Part shown: in pieces, positions 17,074 to 26,160 of the stretch
Position numbering within the stretch: the first letter of the stretch is position 1
Layout: every line of letters begins with the position of its first letter
Assembly: GCF_004114915.1 (NCBI RefSeq)
Contig: NZ_CP022219.1
Location: forward strand, 6,478,501-6,542,500
Reading direction: 5' to 3'
DNA: 64,000 nucleotides
Source: Bradyrhizobium guangxiense
Lineage (GTDB): Bacteria; Pseudomonadota; Alphaproteobacteria; Rhizobiales; Xanthobacteraceae
Notes under the pieces: model-generated
Seen by the model: only the letters and a program-made list of their open reading frames with translations
Told to the model about the DNA's origin: nothing
Database searches by the model: none
Program-made: the position numbers and the translations under genes

Positions 17074-18180
17074 CTACTCCGCCGAAGCGGTGACCCGTTC
17101 CGGGAACGCCGCCGCCAGCGAAGCACGATCCGGCTTCAGCACGCCGCGCTCCGTAATCAGACCCGTCACGAGACGCGCCGGCGTGACGTCGAAGGCGTAG
17201 TTCGCGACCGGTGAATTCTCCGGCACGATGCGCACCGTCTCCAGCCGGCCGTCCGCGGTGCGGCCGGTCATGTCGGTGACCTCCGCGCCGCTGCGCTGCT
17301 CGATCGGGATGTCGCGGATGCCGTCATGGACCGCGAAATCGATCGTCGGCGACGGCAGCGCGACGTAGAACGGCACGTTGTTGTCGTGCGCGGCGAGCGC
17401 CTTCAGATAGGTGCCGATCTTGTTGCAGACGTCGCCATTGGCGGCGACGCGGTCGGTGCCGACGATGGCGAGATCGACCATGCCGTGCTGCATCAGGTGC
17501 CCGCCGGTGTTGTCGGGAATCACCGTGTGCGGCACACCGTGATGGCCGAGCTCCCAGGCCGTGAGCGAGGCGCCCTGATTGCGCGGACGCGTCTCGTCGA
17601 CCCAGACGTGGACCTTGATGCCGCGCTCATGGGCGAGATAGATCGGCGCCGTCGCCGTGCCCCAATCGACGGTGGCGAGCCAGCCGGCGTTGCAATGGGT
17701 CAGCAAATTGACCGTCTCGCCCGGCTTCTTCGCTGCGATCGCCTCGATCAGCTTCAGCCCGTTGCCGGCGATGCCGCGATTGATCTCGACGTCCTGCTCG
17801 ACGATCTCGTCGGCGCGCGCGTAGGCTGCCTCGGCCCGCTCCAGCGGATCGACCGGCGCGAGCGTCGCGCGCATCTCGTCCAGCGCCCATTTCAGATTGA
17901 TTGCCGTCGGCCGCGCCACCACGAGCGTGTCATAAGCGCGCGTCAGGCCCGCGCCGGAGGCGTCCTCGCGCATGCCGAGCGCCATGCCATAGGCCGCGGT
18001 AGCGCCGATCAGCGGCGCGCCGCGCACCAGCATGTCGCGGATCGCGACGGCCGCGTCTTCACACGATGTCAGCTTCGCGACGACGAACTCGTGTGGCAAT
18101 CGGCGCTGATCGATCGCGCCGATGGACCAGCCGTCACGTTCGCGCCAGATGCTGCGGAAATGCTTGCCGTCGACCTTCAT
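17074..18180 (-). CDS. mtnA: S-methyl-5-thioribose-1-phosphate isomerase MtnA
   Basis: 368 residues, the usual family length. Converts 5-methylthioribose-1-phosphate to 5-methylthioribulose-1-phosphate in methionine salvage. Family signatures include DQRRLPHEF near the N-terminus, [34 protein letters not shown] with the catalytic Cys, and [11 protein letters not shown] with the Asp-containing active-site loop ([12 protein letters not shown]). eIF2B-alpha-like fold. Directly follows mtnP (33-bp gap), so both act in sequence on methylthioadenosine. The other mtn genes are not in this window. Confidence 0.95.
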
Positions 18181-18213
18181 GGCATTCTGCCTTTTCGTAC
18201 CTCGTCTTGCGTC

Positions 18214-19089
18214 TCACGCCCGCAGCACGCGTCCCGCCACCGCGTCGAGCTTCTTGAGAAGCTCGGGATCCCGCGCTTCGGGCGCCGTGATCAGCGCGGT
18301 GTCTAGCGCGCGGTCGGAGCCGATCGGACACGGCTCGTGCTCGCGCGGAAGATCTTTGGCCAGCCGCGCCACCAGCGCCTTCGCCTTGTCGGCGTTCGAC
18401 GTCAATACGCGGATGATGTCCTGCACGGTGACGGCATCGTGGTCCGGATGCCAGCAGTCGAAATCGGTGACCATGGCGACGGTCGCGTAGCAGATCTCCG
18501 CCTCGCGTGCGAGCTTCGCCTCGGGCATGTTGGTCATGCCGATCACGGAATAGCCCAGCGTCTTGTACGTCATGCTCTCCGCATAGGTGGAGAATTGCGG
18601 CCCCTCCATGCAGACATAGGTTCCGCCGCGCACCACGGTGATGCCCTCGGCCTCGGCCGCTGCAGCGAGATGGATGCGCAGCCGCGGCGAGACGGGATGC
18701 GCCATCGACACATGCGCGACGCAGCCCCGCCCGAAGAACGAGCTCTCGCGCTTGTGCGTGCGGTCGACGAATTGATCGACGAGAACGAAGGTGCCTGGCG
18801 GCAGTTCCTCCTTGAAGGAGCCGCAGGCCGACAGCGAGATCAAGTCGGTGACACCGGCGCGCTTCAGCACGTCGATATTGGCGCGATAGTTGATGTCGGA
18901 GGGTGACAGCCGGTGGCCCTTGTCGTGCCGCGGCAGGAATACAATGGGCAGGCCGGCGATGGAACCGCGCCTCAAGGGCGCCGACGGCTCACCCCAAGGG
19001 CTTTTGATCAGCTCTTCGCGTGCATCCTCGAGACCCGGCAGGTCATAGATGCCCGAGCCGCCGATGATGCCCAATACCGCCTGCGTCAT
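18214..19089 (-). CDS. mtnP: S-methyl-5'-thioadenosine phosphorylase MtnP
   Basis: 291 residues. Phosphorolysis of 5'-methylthioadenosine to adenine and 5-methylthioribose-1-phosphate. PNP/UDP phosphorylase family type 2: phosphate-binding GIIGGSGIYDLPG at the start, FLPRHDKGHRLSPSDINYRAN, GGTYVCMEGPQFSTYAES and MTNMPEAKLAREAEICYA, all typical MTAP sequences. Upstream gene of the mtnP-mtnA pair; its product is the substrate of MtnA. Start ATG 19089. Confidence 0.95.
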   Translation of the reverse strand: MTQAVLGIIGGSGIYDLPGLEDAREELIKSPWGEPSAPLRRGSIAGLPIVFLPRHDKGHRLSPSDINYRANIDVLKRAGVTDLISLSACGSFKEELPPGTFVLVDQFVDRTHKRESSFFGRGCVAHVSMAHPVSPRLRIHLAAAAEAEGITVVRGGTYVCMEGPQFSTYAESMTYKTLGYSVIGMTNMPEAKLAREAEICYATVAMVTDFDCWHPDHDAVTVQDIIRVLTSNADKAKALVARLAKDLPREHEPCPIGSDRALDTALITAPEARDPELLKKLDAVAGRVLRA

Positions 19090-19249: not shown

Positions 19250-19522
19250 CTAGGCCGCGGTCGCCGGCTGCAGCTGGGTCGCCACCATCCGTTCCAGCGT
19301 CTCGACGGACTGGAAATTCTCCGGCGTGATCTCCGACTGCGGGATGGTGAAGTCGAATTCGGCCTCGACGCCGAGCATCAGGTTGACCATGTCCATCGAG
19401 GTCAGGCCGGCATCGACGAGCTTGGTGGACGGTGTGACGTCAGCGCTGAGCGAATTCTGCTGCAGGATGCCCTTCACCAGCTTGATGATGCGATTGCGCA
19501 CGTCGTCGTCAAAGGCTTGCAT
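19250..19522 (-). CDS. Aminoacyl/acyl carrier protein
   Basis: 90 residues from ATG 19522 (MQAFDDDVRN, GGGA upstream). A four-helix PP-binding protein: the phosphopantetheine attachment site is DAGLTSMDMVNLM with Ser42; it differs from the DSL motif of fatty-acid AcpP and resembles stand-alone peptidyl/aminoacyl carrier proteins. Located divergently from an acyl-CoA dehydrogenase and an amino acid:[carrier protein] ligase. In Bradyrhizobium japonicum, ligases of that family charge small carrier proteins encoded nearby, so this is the likely acceptor of an activated amino acid. Final product unknown. Confidence 0.88.
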   Translation of the reverse strand: MQAFDDDVRNRIIKLVKGILQQNSLSADVTPSTKLVDAGLTSMDMVNLMLGVEAEFDFTIPQSEITPENFQSVETLERMVATQLQPATAA

Positions 19523-19882
19523 CGGCAAATTCCCGTCTGTCTGTCGAAGGTCCGGACCGGCTTTCCGCTACGATGGGCGCGGTCTGCCGGTCCCGCAATG
19601 GGCGACAGCAATACTTCCCGTTTCTTAGTAAACGATGACTCAGATTGTCTGGAATTCAGGCTTCTTCCAGATTCCTAATACGATGTCCGAAAATCGGCAG
19701 ATGCAAACAACTGGGCTTTAACTGTTCGTTCGGAATTGGGCTTTGTTTACCCTCTATTTCATCGACGAATTTGAATTAAATCCGTAGCCTCGTCTCACAA
19801 GCAAAGATGACCGGAGGATCGCTTTCAGCGGTATCGCGAATGATGCCGGCGATCTCGAACGGCAAACCGGAGGCGGACAAGT
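19523..19882. other. Relatively AT-rich divergent control region
   Basis: 360 bp without a gene, visibly richer in A/T than its surroundings, separating the minus-strand carrier-protein gene from the plus-strand dehydrogenase gene. It should contain both promoters. The clearest structure is the inverted repeat at 19648-19671. No riboswitch or small ORF was recognised. Confidence 0.5.
19648..19671. promoter_or_regulatory. Inverted repeat TCTGGAA-N10-TTCCAGA
   Basis: Perfect 7-bp arms with a 10-bp spacer, located about 126 bp upstream of the carrier-protein start and 212 bp upstream of the dehydrogenase start. The size fits a dimeric transcription factor. The regulator is unknown; none is encoded next to it. 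Confidence 0.4.
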
Positions 19883-21100
19883 ATGAACGTGCGTGAAGCA
19901 GTCCTCACTGTCGACGAAACGCAGACGAGCTTGCTCGAGCAGGGACCTTCCCTGACCGAGCGTGCCGCCCGGACCGCCACCGCCGCTGCGGCCGACGCCG
20001 ACCAGGTCGATCGCGACGCCCGTTTTCCGCACAAGGCTTTCGAGGTCGCCCGCGAACAGAAGCTGCTCGGCGTCATGATCCCGGTCGAGTTCGGCGGCTT
20101 CGGCGCCTCCATCTACGACGTCACCGACATCTGCTACACGCTCGGACGCGCCTGCGCCTCGACGGCGATGATCTACGCGATGCATCAGACCAAGGTGGCC
20201 TGCGTCATCAGGCACGGCCACGGCATCCCCTGGATGGAAACCATGATGCGCCGGGTCGCCCGCGACCAGTGGCTGCTCGCCTCCTCCACCACCGAAGGCC
20301 AGAACGGCGGCAACATCCGCGCCAGCGCCGCTGCCGTCGACCACGCCGGCGACACCATCTCGCTGGTCCGCGACGCCACCGTGATCTCCTACGGGGCCGA
20401 GGCCGACGGCCTCGTCACCATCGCCCGCCGCGCCACCGACGCTGCCGCCTCCGATCAGGTGCTGCTGGCACTCGCCAAGGACGATTATTCGCTGAAGCGG
20501 ACGCTGGGCTGGGAAACGCTGGGGATGCGCGGCACCTGCTCGACGGGCTTCGAGCTGAAGGTCGATTGCCCCGCCGACCGCGTCTTCCCGGAATCCTACG
20601 ACAAGATCCATGCCCAGACCATGACGCCGTTCGCGCATCTATGCTGGTCGTCGGCCTGGGCCGGCATTGCCGCCGCAGCCGTTACCCGCGCGCAGGCCTT
20701 CATCCGCAAGGCGGCGCGCTCGTCCGGCGGCCAGATGCCGCCGGCCGCTGCGCATTTCACCGCGGCCAAGATGTCGCTGGCCAAGCTGCGCGCGCTGCTC
20801 GCCACCAACATCGACGCGTTCGCCCGCGCCGAGCATGACGAGCGCGCGCTCGGCTCGCTCGACTTCCAGTCTTCGATCACGCTTCTGAAGGTGCAGGCCT
20901 CCGAGCTCGCGGTCGAAACCGTGATGCATGCGATGCGCACTGCGGGCCTTTCGGGCTACCGCAACGACGGCGAGTTCACCATGGGCCGGCACCTCCGCGA
21001 CGTATTGTCGTCGCCGATCATGATCAACAACGACCGCATTCTGGCCAACGCCGCGACCTCGACCCTGATGAGCGGCGTGCCGTCGAGCCTTCGCGACTGA
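19883..21100 (+). CDS. Acyl-CoA dehydrogenase-like flavoprotein, non-canonical active site
   Basis: 405 residues, ATG 19883 with GGAGGCGGAC upstream. Acyl-CoA dehydrogenase fold: N-terminal helices (RFPHKAFEVAREQKLLGVMIPVEFGG), a beta-domain FAD region (LASSTTEGQNGGNIR) and a C-terminal helical domain (MRTAGLSGYRNDGEFTMGRHLRDVLSSPIMINNDRI). Where MCAD-type enzymes have YEGT with the catalytic Glu, this protein reads MINN, so that base is missing. The next gene is an amino acid:[carrier protein] ligase, 57 bp away. Dehydrogenases of this superfamily that act on aminoacyl carrier proteins are known (prolyl-PCP oxidases such as PltE), so oxidation of a carrier-bound aminoacyl group is a reasonable hypothesis, not shown. 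Confidence 0.85.
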   Translation: MNVREAVLTVDETQTSLLEQGPSLTERAARTATAAAADADQVDRDARFPHKAFEVAREQKLLGVMIPVEFGGFGASIYDVTDICYTLGRACASTAMIYAMHQTKVACVIRHGHGIPWMETMMRRVARDQWLLASSTTEGQNGGNIRASAAAVDHAGDTISLVRDATVISYGAEADGLVTIARRATDAAASDQVLLALAKDDYSLKRTLGWETLGMRGTCSTGFELKVDCPADRVFPESYDKIHAQTMTPFAHLCWSSAWAGIAAAAVTRAQAFIRKAARSSGGQMPPAAAHFTAAKMSLAKLRALLATNIDAFARAEHDERALGSLDFQSSITLLKVQASELAVETVMHAMRTAGLSGYRNDGEFTMGRHLRDVLSSPIMINNDRILANAATSTLMSGVPSSLRD

Positions 21101-21157
21101 CGTGCCTTGCCGACCCAGACCAACAAGAACAATTTCGAGATAGCAGGACATCGCCCC

Positions 21158-22138
21158 ATGAATATTGCCGTCCTCCCCAATTCGCCGGAAACCGCGCCGC
21201 AAATCGTTGATCCGCTCGACCATCTCGCCGACAAGCTGTTCCATCGCATGGGCGCCGACGGCGTCTATGCCCGCACCGCACTGTATGAAGGCGTCGTCGA
21301 GAAGCTGGCCGCGTTGATCACTGGCCATCGCGAGACCGGTACCGAGGTGATGCGTTTCCCGCCGGTGATGAGCCGGGCCCAGCTCGAAAAATCCGGCTAC
21401 CTCAAGAGCTTTCCGAACCTGCTCGGTTGCGTCTGCGGCCTGCACGGGACCGAACGCGAGATCAACGCCGCGGTGAGCCGCTTCCATGCCGGCGGCGACT
21501 GGACCACCTCGCTGTCGCCCGCCGACCTCGTGCTGTCGCCTGCCGCCTGCTATCCGGTCTATCCGATCGCGGCGAGCCGCGGACCGTTGCCGAAGGGCGG
21601 CCTGCGCTTCGACGTTGCCGCCGATTGCTTCCGCCGCGAGCCGTCGAAGCATCTCGACCGCCTGCAATCGTTCCGGATGCGCGAATATGTTTGCATCGGC
21701 AGCCCCGACGACGTCGCAGATTTCCGCGAGCGCTGGATGGTCCGCGCGCAGAAGATCGCGACCGACCTCGGCCTCACCTTCCGTGTCGACTACGCCAGCG
21801 ATCCGTTCTTCGGTCGCGTCGGCCAGATGAAGGCGGTTAGCCAGAAGCAGCAGCAGCTCAAATTCGAGCTCCTGATTCCGCTGCGCTCCGAAGAGCATCC
21901 GACCGCCTGCATGAGCTTCAACTATCACCGTGAGCATTTCGGCACGACCTGGGGCATTCAGGACGCCAATGGCGAGCCGGCGCACACGGGCTGCGTCGCT
22001 TTCGGCATGGATCGGCTGGCTGTCGCCATGTTCCACACCCACGGCACCGACCTTTCCGCCTGGCCCGCCAAGGTGCGGGACGTCCTGGGCCTGCAGCCGC
22101 TTGCTCCGGCCAATGCCCATGTCGAGGGCTGGCGCTAA
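21158..22138 (+). CDS. Amino acid:[carrier protein] ligase (class II seryl-tRNA synthetase-like)
   Basis: 326 residues from ATG 21158 (AGGA nine bases upstream); an upstream start at 21107 adds residues without family similarity. It resembles the catalytic core of atypical SerRS but lacks the tRNA-binding arm, as in the Bradyrhizobium japonicum enzymes that activate glycine or alanine with ATP and transfer it to the phosphopantetheine of a carrier protein. The zinc ligands fall at Cys131, Glu176 and Cys279, the positions I recall for the characterised B. japonicum glycine ligase. Class II motif 2 is near RREPSKHLDRLQSF and motif 3 near AFGMDRLAVAMF. Carrier protein at 19250-19522 is the probable partner. 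Confidence 0.93.
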   Translation: MNIAVLPNSPETAPQIVDPLDHLADKLFHRMGADGVYARTALYEGVVEKLAALITGHRETGTEVMRFPPVMSRAQLEKSGYLKSFPNLLGCVCGLHGTEREINAAVSRFHAGGDWTTSLSPADLVLSPAACYPVYPIAASRGPLPKGGLRFDVAADCFRREPSKHLDRLQSFRMREYVCIGSPDDVADFRERWMVRAQKIATDLGLTFRVDYASDPFFGRVGQMKAVSQKQQQLKFELLIPLRSEEHPTACMSFNYHREHFGTTWGIQDANGEPAHTGCVAFGMDRLAVAMFHTHGTDLSAWPAKVRDVLGLQPLAPANAHVEGWR

Positions 22139-22175
22139 CCGAACGAGGCCGGTCATTTCCACGGGCAAAACGAGC

Positions 22176-23051
22176 GTGATCCACACCAAGATCCGATGCC
22201 GCGAGATCACGGAGTCCGACGCAGAAGCGATCGCGGACTTGCTGACGCGCGGATTCGTGGGCCGCTCGCGCAACTATTGGATCCAGGGCCTGCGCCGGCA
22301 GGCCTTCCGGGCCGTGCCGGAGGGCTATCCGCGCTTCGGCTACATGCTCGACCATGATGGCACGCCGGTCGGCGTGCTGCTGCTGATCTACACCGCGCGC
22401 AAGGACGGCGAAGAGACCACCATCCAGTGCAATTTGTCGAGCTGGTATGTCGATCCGGCCTACCGCAACTACGCTCCGCTGCTGACCAAGATTGCCCAGC
22501 GGCACAAAGACGTGACGTATTTCAACATCAGTCCGGCGCCGTGGACCTGGCCGATCATCGAGACCCAGGGCTTTCGCGCCTATTGCCGCGGCATATTCTT
22601 CTCGGTTCCTGCACTGGCAGGCGCCCCGCGCGGGAGCGAGATCGAGGGCATCTCACCTCACGCCAAGTCGATCGAGGGGCTTTCCGACGCCGAGACCGAG
22701 CTGCTGACGCGGCATGCGCGCTACAATTGCCTCAGCCTGGTCTGCCGCACGCCGAAGGGAACGTTCCCCTTCATTCTGCAACCCGTGCGCATCCGCCGCG
22801 GCTTCATTGCACCGCCTGCGATGAAGCTGATTTATTGCCGCAGCGCCGCGGAATACGCCGCTTGCGCAGGCCGTATCGGCCGCCTGCTGCTCCGGCTCGG
22901 CAAGGTCGCGGTAACGGTCGATGCCAATGGCCCGATTCCCGGCCTTGTCGGTATTTACACCGAGCGGCGCGGTCGCAAATATTTCAGGGGTCCCCACCGG
23001 CCGCAGCTTGGCGATCTCACCGACACGGAACTCGTGTTGTACGGGCCTTAG
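22176..23051 (+). CDS. GNAT-like acyltransferase of the carrier-protein cluster
   Basis: 291 residues from GTG 22176; the frame is open further upstream but that part overlaps the ligase gene. The N-terminal half looks like a GNAT N-acyltransferase (REITESDAEAIADLL, then YMLDHDGTPVGVLLLIY and SSWYVDPAYRNYAPLLTKIA, the usual acyl-CoA/phosphopantetheine region, where the R/QxxGxG/A loop is degenerate). The C-terminal half has no fold I recognise. It follows the ligase by 37 bp and is probably co-transcribed. It could transfer the carrier-bound aminoacyl group to an acceptor; this is inference. Confidence 0.65.
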   Translation: MIHTKIRCREITESDAEAIADLLTRGFVGRSRNYWIQGLRRQAFRAVPEGYPRFGYMLDHDGTPVGVLLLIYTARKDGEETTIQCNLSSWYVDPAYRNYAPLLTKIAQRHKDVTYFNISPAPWTWPIIETQGFRAYCRGIFFSVPALAGAPRGSEIEGISPHAKSIEGLSDAETELLTRHARYNCLSLVCRTPKGTFPFILQPVRIRRGFIAPPAMKLIYCRSAAEYAACAGRIGRLLLRLGKVAVTVDANGPIPGLVGIYTERRGRKYFRGPHRPQLGDLTDTELVLYGP

Positions 23052-23292: not shown

Positions 23293-26160
23293 ATGAGTTC
23301 GACCTGCGACAACGAGCTTGGTGCACGCCGCGAGCAGGGTCCGGAGGCCCTGGTCGCGCTGAGCCAGCTCGCGCTCGACCACATGGAACAGGGCGTCTGC
23401 GTCTACGATGCCGACAACCGGATCGTGCTGGTCAATCAACGCTACCTGTCCCTGTTCGACATGTCGGGCGACATCGTGCGGGTGGGCACCAGCTACCGCG
23501 AGGTGCTCGCACACAGCGCCGGGCGCGGCAACTTTCCGGAAAGCGAGCTTGACGCGCTCTATTCGGCGCGGATCGCCCAGATTGCCGCAGGCAAACCGTT
23601 CCGGACCGAGCAGCGACTTGCGACCGGCCTCGTCATGTCGCTCGAGCTGAAGCCGCTTCCGGGCGGTGGCTGGATGACGATCTGCGACGACGTCCCCCGC
23701 CTCGCCCGGCTCGAAGCGGAATTGCGCGTGCAGACCGAGCGCAGCCAGCACGCGCTCGCCAACATGTCGCACGGCCTCATCATGTACGACGCCGACAGCC
23801 GCGTCGTCGTCTGCAACGACCGCTTCCTGAATCTCTACAACCTCGACCCCCAGATCGTGCAGCCGGGCGTCTCGCATCGTGCGGTGCTCGACCATTGGGT
23901 GTCGCGCGGCAACCAGCCGGGCATGCCGACCGACGAATTCCGTAGTTCCAGATTGGAGGACGTGCGCACCAGACGAGAGAAATCCCTGCTGGTGATGCGT
24001 TATGACGGACGCATGGTGCAGACGGTCTCCCGCTTCCTGCCGGACGGCGGCTGGGTCACCGTGCACGAGGATGTCACGGAGCGGCTGCAATACGAGGAAA
24101 CGCTGCGGCAGCAGAACTTCATCTTGGATGCGGCGCTGGAGAACATGGCGCACGGGCTCGCCCTCTACGACAGCGACATGCGCCTTCGCGTCTGCAACAC
24201 CACCTACCGCAAGATCTACCTGCTGTCGCCGGAGGAGACGCGGCCGGGCACGCATCTCGCCGAGCTGATCGAACGTTCGATGGCGAACGGCGCGTTCGCC
24301 TCGGAATACAGCCCAGGAGAAATCACGGAAGCGGCCCGCGCGCGAATCGCGAGCCGCGACCGCTCACCGATGCGTCGGCGCATGTCGAACGGCACCGTGG
24401 TCTCGGTACGCTATTGCGCGCTGCCCGAGGGCGGCTTCGTCGCCACCTATGAGGACATCACCGAGCGTGAGCGCGTCATCGAGCAGCTGAGTGAGCAGTA
24501 CCGCCGCTTCGACGCGGCGCTGAACAACATGAGCCAGGGCCTGTGCATGCTCGATGCGAGCCTGCACGTGATCGTCTGCAACCGCCGCTATGTCGAGATG
24601 TACGGCATGTCGCCCGACATCGTGAAGCCCGGCGTCTCGATGCGCGAGATCATGGAGCACAGCTGCGAGCTCGGCATCCACCCGAACATGACGGGGGCCA
24701 AGCTCTATGCCGACTATGTCGAGCGGCTGCGCGAAGGCGAGCATACGCTGCATCGCCATCTGAGCGACGGCCGCATCATCAAGCTCAATCACAAGCGGAT
24801 GGAGCATGGCGGCTGGGTCGTCACCTATGAAGACGTCACCGAGCGCCACAAGGCCCAGGCGCGCGTGGCGCACATGGCGCGGCACGATTCGCTGACCGAC
24901 CTGCCCAACCGCACGCTGTTCCGCGAGAAGATGAGCGAGGGTCTGAACCAGGTCGCGATCGCCGGCGGCGCGATGGCCGTGCTGTGCTTCGACCTCGACA
25001 ATTTCAAGACCGTCAACGACCGCCTCGGCCACGCCGCCGGCGACCGCCTGCTGCGCTGGGTCGCGGCACGCCTGAAGGAGAATGTCGGCGAGCACGATAC
25101 CGTCGCGCGCCTCGGCGGCGACGAATTCGCCGTTCTCCAGCGCGGACCGCAACCGCAATCGGCGGAAAAGCTGGCCAGACGCCTGGTCGAGGTCCTCGGT
25201 CATCCGCCGCCGCTGGAAAGCCAGTCGATCCATGTCGGCGCCTCTGTCGGCATCGCGATCGCGCCCGATCACGGGCTCGATGCGGACGAACTGATGAAGT
25301 GCGCCGACCTCGCGCTGTACCAGGCCAAGGCCAGGGGGCGCGGCGCCTATCAGCTGTTCGAGCCCGAGATGGAAGAGGAGGCGCGCAGCCGGCATGCGCT
25401 GGAGCAAGATCTGCGCGGCGCACTAGAGGCACACGAATTCCACCTGGTGTTTCAGCCGCAGATGCGGCTCGAGTCGTCGGAGCTCACCGGCTTCGAGGCC
25501 CTGCTGCGCTGGAGACATCCTTCGCGCGGCTTCATCTCGCCGGCCGAGTTCGTTCCGATCGCGGAAGAGAACGGCTTGATCGTTCCGATCGGCGAATGGG
25601 GGCTGCGGACGGCCTGCGTCACGGCCGCGTCATGGCCGGATGTCACGGTTGCAGTGAACCTGTCGCCGGTGCAGTTCCGCTCGCGCGGACTGGTGGCAAT
25701 GGTGACGAGCGCACTTGCGGAGGCCGGCCTGCCGCCGCAGCGGCTCCAGCTCGAGGGCACCGAGACGGCGCTGCTCGACGACAGTGAGGCGACGATCGAG
25801 ATCCTGCACCAGCTCCGCGCGCTGGGGATCCGCGTCAGCCTCGACGATTTCGGCGTCGGCTATTCCTCGCTAAGCTATTTGCGCAAGTTTCCGTTCGACC
25901 GCATCAAGATCGACCGCTCCTTCGTCGGCACGCTCGGCGAAAGCCCGGAGAGCGTCGCCATCGTTCGCACCATCGCAAGCCTCGGTTCCGTGCTCGGCGT
26001 CGAGACCACGGCGGAGGGCGTGGAGACCGAAGAGCAGCTCGACTTCGTGCGCGAATGCGGCTGCACCGCCGTTCAGGGCTATTATTTCGGCAAGCCGTGC
26101 CCGGCATCGGAGGTCGGCCGCACCATCGAGACGCTGAACACGGTCCGGCGCGTCGCGTAA
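23293..26160 (+). CDS. Multi-PAS GGDEF-EAL protein (c-di-GMP turnover)
   Basis: 955 residues. Four tandem PAS (PAS-7 type) domains at about 25-140, 150-270, 275-395 and 400-515, each with the pattern 'xxMxxGLxxYDxxxRxxxCNxxY'. Then a GGDEF domain with intact GGDEF at 608-612 (LGGDEFAV) and an EAL domain with EAL at 735-737, DDFGVGYSSLSYL and TTAEGVETEEQ. Both enzymatic motifs look complete. The inhibitory RxxD I-site is absent (GEHD at that position). No membrane segment; cytoplasmic. Probably switches between diguanylate cyclase and phosphodiesterase activity under PAS control; signal unknown. Confidence 0.92.
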   Translation: MSSTCDNELGARREQGPEALVALSQLALDHMEQGVCVYDADNRIVLVNQRYLSLFDMSGDIVRVGTSYREVLAHSAGRGNFPESELDALYSARIAQIAAGKPFRTEQRLATGLVMSLELKPLPGGGWMTICDDVPRLARLEAELRVQTERSQHALANMSHGLIMYDADSRVVVCNDRFLNLYNLDPQIVQPGVSHRAVLDHWVSRGNQPGMPTDEFRSSRLEDVRTRREKSLLVMRYDGRMVQTVSRFLPDGGWVTVHEDVTERLQYEETLRQQNFILDAALENMAHGLALYDSDMRLRVCNTTYRKIYLLSPEETRPGTHLAELIERSMANGAFASEYSPGEITEAARARIASRDRSPMRRRMSNGTVVSVRYCALPEGGFVATYEDITERERVIEQLSEQYRRFDAALNNMSQGLCMLDASLHVIVCNRRYVEMYGMSPDIVKPGVSMREIMEHSCELGIHPNMTGAKLYADYVERLREGEHTLHRHLSDGRIIKLNHKRMEHGGWVVTYEDVTERHKAQARVAHMARHDSLTDLPNRTLFREKMSEGLNQVAIAGGAMAVLCFDLDNFKTVNDRLGHAAGDRLLRWVAARLKENVGEHDTVARLGGDEFAVLQRGPQPQSAEKLARRLVEVLGHPPPLESQSIHVGASVGIAIAPDHGLDADELMKCADLALYQAKARGRGAYQLFEPEMEEEARSRHALEQDLRGALEAHEFHLVFQPQMRLESSELTGFEALLRWRHPSRGFISPAEFVPIAEENGLIVPIGEWGLRTACVTAASWPDVTVAVNLSPVQFRSRGLVAMVTSALAEAGLPPQRLQLEGTETALLDDSEATIEILHQLRALGIRVSLDDFGVGYSSLSYLRKFPFDRIKIDRSFVGTLGESPESVAIVRTIASLGSVLGVETTAEGVETEEQLDFVRECGCTAVQGYYFGKPCPASEVGRTIETLNTVRRVA

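Follow-up and report, generated by a model that had tools for sequence, protein, structure and literature searches.

What purpose do the carrier-protein ligases that resemble seryl-tRNA synthetase (SerRS) serve? To our knowledge it is still unknown, and the question is raised again by four genes of Bradyrhizobium guangxiense. They lie in the window analysed here, a stretch of 64,000 nt from contig NZ_CP022219.1 (6,478,501-6,542,500), and encode a carrier protein (CP), a flavoenzyme of the acyl-CoA dehydrogenase (ACAD) fold (DH), a SerRS-like ligase (LIG) and a GNAT-like protein. Coordinates of features are window positions unless marked C1 or with the L-number of a locus. A preliminary description had proposed that the four proteins load, oxidise and transfer an aminoacyl group; it is supported in part, the ligase and carrier being orthologous to a characterised pair and the genes staying together in many relatives, while the GNAT proved lineage-specific and the four genes turned out not to be the whole system. 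The best explanation as a whole, with a probability of just under one half, would be that CP, DH and LIG load a small amino acid on the carrier and oxidise it there, and that an exchangeable enzyme transfers the product. The loading is already known; new here are the partnership with DH and its lack of catalytic acids, the exchange of the release enzyme between lineages and the splitting of the cluster.

All four open reading frames were recovered where the preliminary description placed them, with the carrier diverging from DH across 360 bp and with gaps of 57 bp between DH and LIG and 37 bp between LIG and GNAT. The start of CP was set at the ATG common to the solved orthologue, and the predicted phosphopantetheine serine, Ser42, is present within GLTS. 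A scan of genome contigs with the GNAT protein as query found the order CP(-) DH(+) LIG(+) GNAT(+) in 67 of 72 loci, a set conditioned on the presence of GNAT and in which L037 and L073 stem from one record. The earlier proposal would have suffered had DH and the acyltransferase been absent beside the ligase in most relatives; since many Bradyrhizobium keep all four genes side by side, this is not the pattern found.

Table 1. Location of the four genes and of a promoter motif in the window
Feature	Position	Strand	Basis
CP, stand-alone aminoacyl carrier protein, 90 aa	19250-19522	-	Pfam PP-binding over cut-off; phmmer to 4h2s_C
DH, acyl-CoA-dehydrogenase-fold flavoenzyme, predicted aminoacyl-CP N-oxygenase	19883-21100	+	Pfam, ligase adjacency, active-site comparison, profile matches
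LIG, SerRS-like amino acid:[carrier protein] ligase, Bll0957 orthologue	21158-22138	+	3mey match, NF005479
GNAT, probable tandem-GNAT protein, GTG start, predicted acyl/aminoacyl transferase with carrier-bound donor	22176-23051	+	
GGTATCGCGAAT, PhaR-box-like, at -53 of DH	19830-19841	+	One base off GGCATCGCGAAT predicted for bll0958

The loading step can be regarded as known because LIG and CP are orthologous to the characterised Bll0957 pair. LIG aligns with Bll0957 (3mey) at 711 bits, gap-free over residues 1-326, and belongs to the family 'amino acid--[acyl-carrier-protein] ligase' (NF005479; 484 bits for a cut-off of 357). It also scores over the cut-off of the Pfam family tRNA-synt_2b and is the single match in its own genome. 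The residues C131, E176 and C279, which we take to be zinc ligands, are present. As expected of an NF005479 member, LIG adjoins a stand-alone carrier with a phosphopantetheine serine, and CP matches 'Aminoacyl carrier protein 1' (4h2s_C) by phmmer at 162 bits over residues 1-90. In a motif search of 25 carriers, 8 matched the pattern used and the remaining 17 carry G(L/M)(T/S)S. Mocibob et al. reportedly showed that ligases of this type load a carrier, with glycine or alanine going to the orthologue's carrier and not to tRNA. The earlier assignment of the ligase to a family whose Bradyrhizobium members load carrier proteins is borne out by orthology to the 3mey/4h2s pair, the choice of glycine or alanine being, as said, reported for the orthologue. 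LIG would thus adenylate a small amino acid, glycine or alanine by orthology, and thioesterify it onto the Ser42-phosphopantetheine of CP. Among the open-licence full texts that made up the literature searched, no paper on the pathway was found.

The partners of the ligase were compared in 32 genomes with a ligase over the NF005479 cut-off, found by sampling 289 genomes and then 398; in seven of them (G521 and six Bradyrhizobium-like genomes) about 3.9 kb of surroundings were covered. DH adjoins the ligase in 31 of the 32, and the case for CP, DH and LIG as a portable three-gene module is strong. The fourth gene is a DUF1839 gene in 17 genomes, a GNAT gene within about 4 kb in nine and neither in six, one of which (G129) has its GNAT gene on another contig; within the stretch covered, none of the 32 has GNAT and DUF1839 together. 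Clusters with DUF1839 occur in Rhizobium, Shinella, Azospirillum, Methylobacterium, Burkholderia, Caballeronia and Mycetohabitans. In the genus of the window, 27 of 36 genomes contain a GNAT match; in one of them the identity is no more than 27%, and in two the match is fragmented. Being confined to certain lineages and replaced by DUF1839 in others, the acyltransferase does not define the pathway.

The reaction catalysed by DH is central to this explanation. DH scores over the cut-offs of Acyl-CoA_dh_N and Acyl-CoA_dh_1 (PF02771, PF00441) and below that of PF02770. Its active site was compared in an alignment of 30 DH members and 35 of 37 other PF00441 matches, L270 and L288 lying outside the length limits and L296 being unused. 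All 30 members carry alanine, serine or threonine at the IVD-type site and isoleucine or valine at the MCAD-type site, so that neither position is acidic; the DH of the window, with A251 and I381 at these two sites, lacks the catalytic glutamate of a true dehydrogenase. From these residues, the earlier name 'dehydrogenase' may be a misnomer. A precedent is ChmG, which in the part of PMC10849742 that treats it is described as a KijD3-like enzyme of the ACAD fold with a methionine at the catalytic-glutamate site, N-oxygenating prolyl-S-ChmI in a reaction called the first of its kind. Among the lower-ranked matches of the DH profile are DnmZ, KijD3, a nitrososynthase and DszC. N-oxygenases of the AurF family (PF11583) lie beside distant ligase homologues in each of the three loci that were scanned for families (L159, L191, L194), and the family occurs in 4 of 14 mapped distant-ligase loci, several of which have few gene calls; a nitronate monooxygenase is found in L191 (by Pfam) and L194 (by annotation). 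Because both catalytic acids are absent, ChmG is likewise devoid of the glutamate and AurF enzymes lie near distant ligases, we predict that DH N-oxygenates the carrier-bound amino acid rather than performing an alpha,beta-dehydrogenation, at odds slightly under even. Such a flavin- and O2-dependent reaction would bring the aminoacyl-S-CP to the level of an N-hydroxyamino acid or oxime.

Several points weigh against this. Compared with solved structures, the DH profile ranks true acyl-CoA dehydrogenases first. Among the ACAD-fold paralogues of the same genome, 24 of 35 have a glutamate or aspartate at either site (glutamate in 19) and 11 have neither, so that loss of the catalytic acid alone is no proof of oxygenation. 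The DH phylogeny placed the family without support, and its AlphaFold model (pLDDT 43.5) is too poor for inspection or a fold search. In what PMC10849742 says of the ChmG glutamate site, the matching ACAD column is not stated. The AurF loci belong to far relatives, with a ligase identity of 28-32%. As for the module itself, the CP-LIG pair of G190 lacks a DH gene, and CP was not detected in L188 and L189.

Should DH be a true dehydrogenase, it would take two electrons from the aminoacyl-S-CP, giving an imino-glycyl and then a glyoxylyl group, or a dehydroalanyl group, by means of an unusual base such as His252, and GNAT or DUF1839 would transfer the product. His252 is invariant in DH and adjoins the IVD-glutamate column, and the top rank of acyl-CoA dehydrogenases among solved matches fits this alternative, as do the thiotemplated ACADs in the match list, the prolyl-ACP dehydrogenase 4irn and 6cxt_B, named Bmp3 in PMC10849742. 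We nevertheless hold it unlikely. The characterised prolyl-carrier oxidases keep the catalytic glutamate, as far as the account in PMC10849742 extends, whereas no DH member has an acid at either site, and the usual ACAD chemistry is inapplicable to glycine, which has no beta carbon.

Release or transfer of the oxidised product would fall to a separate and exchangeable enzyme: the tandem GNAT in the window, DUF1839 in other clusters and perhaps an ATP-grasp ligase in Priestia. No Pfam family over cut-off was found in the window GNAT, the single match in its own genome. Its model (pLDDT 67.5) contains a GNAT domain and, by reading of the secondary structure, a second GNAT-like half; the best Foldseek hits are tandem GNATs aligned along some 290 columns, but TM is low, rmsd high and the confidence of the model likewise low. 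RxxGxG/A is the CoA pyrophosphate-binding loop of GNAT acetyltransferases. None of 24 GNAT sequences shows it, which sets them apart from CoA-dependent GNATs and would fit a donor that is bound to a carrier. The family is rare, found in 10 of 337 genomes of the class with seven candidates scored per genome, so that members may be missed; in a further search many rows span a single GNAT domain and are a poor test of the second half. Relatives with no ligase in the stretch covered stand beside an AMP-ligase-CP2-SDR trio (L069, L231, L232, L233, L245) or in exopolysaccharide-like loci (L066, L067, L168, L169), where the neighbours, named by similarity and eye, are GumC-like, flippase-like, O-antigen-ligase-like and glycosyltransferase genes. 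L066 also holds scraps of DH and of an aminotransferase, and a full cluster (L244) lies 20-25 kb further on the same contig. Since such relatives show no ligase in the stretch covered, the role of GNAT in acyl transfer appears broader than the module.

The enzyme that replaces GNAT is described in PMC10318531, in its material on DUF1839, as a papain-like protein whose triad is C(T/S)H, and a part in glycan processing is suggested for it there. All of 16 aligned DUF1839 sequences share Thr126, Thr127 and His144, and 15 of them also have His123; as the 16 were chosen out of 21 by a motif containing the cysteine, the invariance of the latter is partly by construction. A GH2 gene follows in 16 of the 17 DUF1839 clusters, and also in annotated examples from Rhizobium, Shinella, Caballeronia and Mycetohabitans. 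No DUF1839 was found in genome G000, and control genomes likewise gave none. A kinship of DUF1839 with BtrH was considered and set aside, the hhalign comparison (Prob 3.5%, E 0.012; six control pairs E 0.11-0.47) not being significant; BtrH_N has no match in the window's genome. In Shinella, a distant GNAT relative (L192:2482-3360, +) has GumC/O-antigen-ligase genes on one side and, 5 kb away on the other, a cluster of the DUF1839 type.

These neighbourhoods bear on a second alternative, in which GNAT or DUF1839 would put the carrier-bound aminoacyl group on an envelope glycan or exopolysaccharide, as AlmEFG is said to do. It draws on the ligase-less GNAT relatives of the four glycan loci, including the L066 contig with its full cluster, on GH2 beside DUF1839, on a GumC-like gene near the L185 and L186 clusters, on the Shinella GNAT relative beside the O-antigen ligase and GumC genes, and on the suggested glycan processing by DUF1839 (PMC10318531, in the material just mentioned). 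We consider it improbable, as no glycan genes were seen beside the four window genes, the five GNAT loci with the AMP-ligase-CP2-SDR trio have no ligase in the stretch covered, and the polysaccharide deacetylase discussed below goes with RecQ in Bradyrhizobium.

The four genes are part of a larger cluster. At non-DUF1839 loci, many of them in type-B relatives, the module is accompanied by an O-acetylhomoserine sulfhydrylase (OAHS), a homoserine O-acyltransferase (MetA/HTS, here HTS) and a class-IV aminotransferase (BCAT), and several such loci add the AMP-ligase/CP2/SDR trio, a second AMP-ligase, a ThDP enzyme, a cupin and an alpha/beta hydrolase. Ligase loci without DUF1839 that lie outside the main Bradyrhizobium clade number 22 once duplicates are merged; 19 of them have both OAHS and HTS, which were not seen in L184-L186. 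The 22 are L059, L063 (= L249), L064 (= L228), L065, L071, L153, L165, L184-L189, L226, L227, L230, L240-L244 and L247, the equal contigs L249 and L228 being counted once with L063 and L064. In the main clade, including the window, OAHS, HTS and BCAT were not found beside the four genes. The window's own genome does encode a BCAT (C1:36255-37124) 90% identical to the L063 copy and an HTS (C1:26266-27129) 84% identical, preceded by OAHS, at a second locus spanning contig positions 25-37 kb; the cluster is thus split in two here. BCAT is followed there by a methyltransferase gene, phaR (L218:3039-3629, -) and a thiolase gene, which places phaR one gene from BCAT. A polysaccharide deacetylase gene after HTS was rejected as a part of the system, since it goes with RecQ in Bradyrhizobium and is probably a chromosomal neighbour. 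By this comparison, HTS, OAHS and BCAT would extend the pathway of which the module is a part in Bradyrhizobium. Five Bradyrhizobium-like genomes (L240-L244) carry a diverged second kind of cluster, with AMP-ligases, CP, DH, LIG, OAHS, HTS, GNAT and, in four of the five, BCAT; four of these genomes also carry a GNAT of the window type at 84-91% identity.

It is highly improbable that the four genes are merely decaying in the window strain and no longer serve a function there: broken copies exist (L074/L246, which are one contig, L066 and L247) and the rest of the cluster lies at another locus, but pairwise dN/dS of CP, DH, LIG and GNAT against three relatives is 0.06-0.27, which indicates purifying selection on all four, and the two middle genes are expressed and regulated in B. 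diazoefficiens according to the data on them in PMC10888616. In that species, the loss of phaR raised bll0957 and bll0958 with a fold change of 3.0 each at 0.5% O2, for RNA and protein according to the legend (PMC10888616). The name of bll0958 and its location beside bll0957 are our grounds for taking it as the DH orthologue. A PhaR box, GGCATCGCGAAT, was predicted at -52 of bll0958, the published consensus is NGCN3GC[GA]N3, and the authors call the motif abundant (PMC10888616, in its treatment of PhaR targets). The single base that differs in the window copy lies in the conserved GC, so that this copy misfits the consensus. Of 65 relatives, 42 have the pattern GG[CT]ATCGCGA[AT]T ahead of their DH gene. 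Control of the four-gene set by PhaR through this putative box is a lead.

Ligase homologues were also seen on plasmids. On a Priestia megaterium plasmid (L190, 1670-16644), acpS-CP-DH-LIG is followed by genes for a transporter, an ATP-grasp enzyme, a hydrolase, an alanine permease and an alanine racemase. A D-Ala-D-Ala ligase gene lies upstream, and the ATP-grasp enzyme scores over the PRK07206 cut-off and is distantly like dapdiamide synthase; the whole looks like an alanine-mimic pathway with self-protection. A distant ligase homologue on an Alkalihalophilus plasmid (L297, 6764-14463) is accompanied by BtrH_N, two carriers, a 3-hydroxyacyl-CoA dehydrogenase, an ACAD, HAD-IIIC and an acyltransferase, a set that resembles an aminomalonyl-type extender pathway. 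Another, on a small plasmid of the honeybee symbiont Apilactobacillus kunkeei (L298, 1455-10943), has as neighbours ATP-grasp genes named ddl, an aminotransferase gene named ilvE, a methyltransferase gene and a transketolase gene that is split.

Two neighbours of the four genes complete the picture. Directly beyond CP and on its strand lie mtnA and mtnP (17074-19089, -), an adjacency restricted to some Bradyrhizobium. Methionine salvage was considered as a part of the system, with a LuxI-like GNAT using S-adenosylmethionine and giving methylthioadenosine. mtnP was found in 17 of 19 genomes searched, including all 17 of the same genus, 10 of which have no GNAT or ligase match, and in G015 and G032 it lies far from the cluster. 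MtnP and MtnA were rejected because their adjacency is clade-specific and cluster-free genomes of the genus keep mtnP. After GNAT, in most of the 72 loci, comes a gene for a 955-aa protein (23293-26160, +), by eye a GGDEF/EAL-like sensor.

With the same flavoenzyme in 31 of 32 ligase genomes, an atypical active site and a swapped release enzyme, the purpose of SerRS-like ligases becomes assayable with purified proteins. If true, N-oxygenation would be the central chemistry of an orphan pathway in plant-associated bacteria and would extend the reaction as PMC10849742 presents it. A wider scenario, doubtful in its entirety, would make CP-DH-LIG, which was seen in Alphaproteobacteria, in Betaproteobacteria and on one plasmid from the Bacillota, a widespread module that N-oxygenates tethered glycine or alanine. 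DH would then join ChmG as the founder of another family of stand-alone N-oxygenases for aminoacyl carriers, different release enzymes would build N-O-containing antimetabolites or signals, and Bradyrhizobium would join the N-oxidised unit to a homoserine-derived one under PhaR control.

Known systems share parts of this arrangement. Rhizobitoxine-type pathways are Bradyrhizobium pathways that use an O-acylhomoserine gamma-replacement enzyme. An enzyme of the O-acylhomoserine type would be the feature in common, purely as a lead. BtrH_N, an acyl-carrier-protein:aminoglycoside acyltransferase, is papain-like as is DUF1839; it moves an acyl group off a carrier, and a BtrH_N protein adjoins the distant ligase homologue of Alkalihalophilus. 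In chalkophomycin, ChmI, ChmJ and ChmG likewise combine a carrier, an adenylating enzyme and an ACAD-fold enzyme devoid of the glutamate on a carrier-bound amino acid; chalkophomycin differs in its proline substrate, in a second ACAD, ChmH, that keeps the glutamate, and in that no GNAT appears in the section describing it (PMC10849742). LIG and CP are full-length orthologues of the Bll0957 ligase and its carrier (3mey, 4h2s), a system to which the present analysis adds DH as a partner, a fourth gene that can be exchanged and a second locus.

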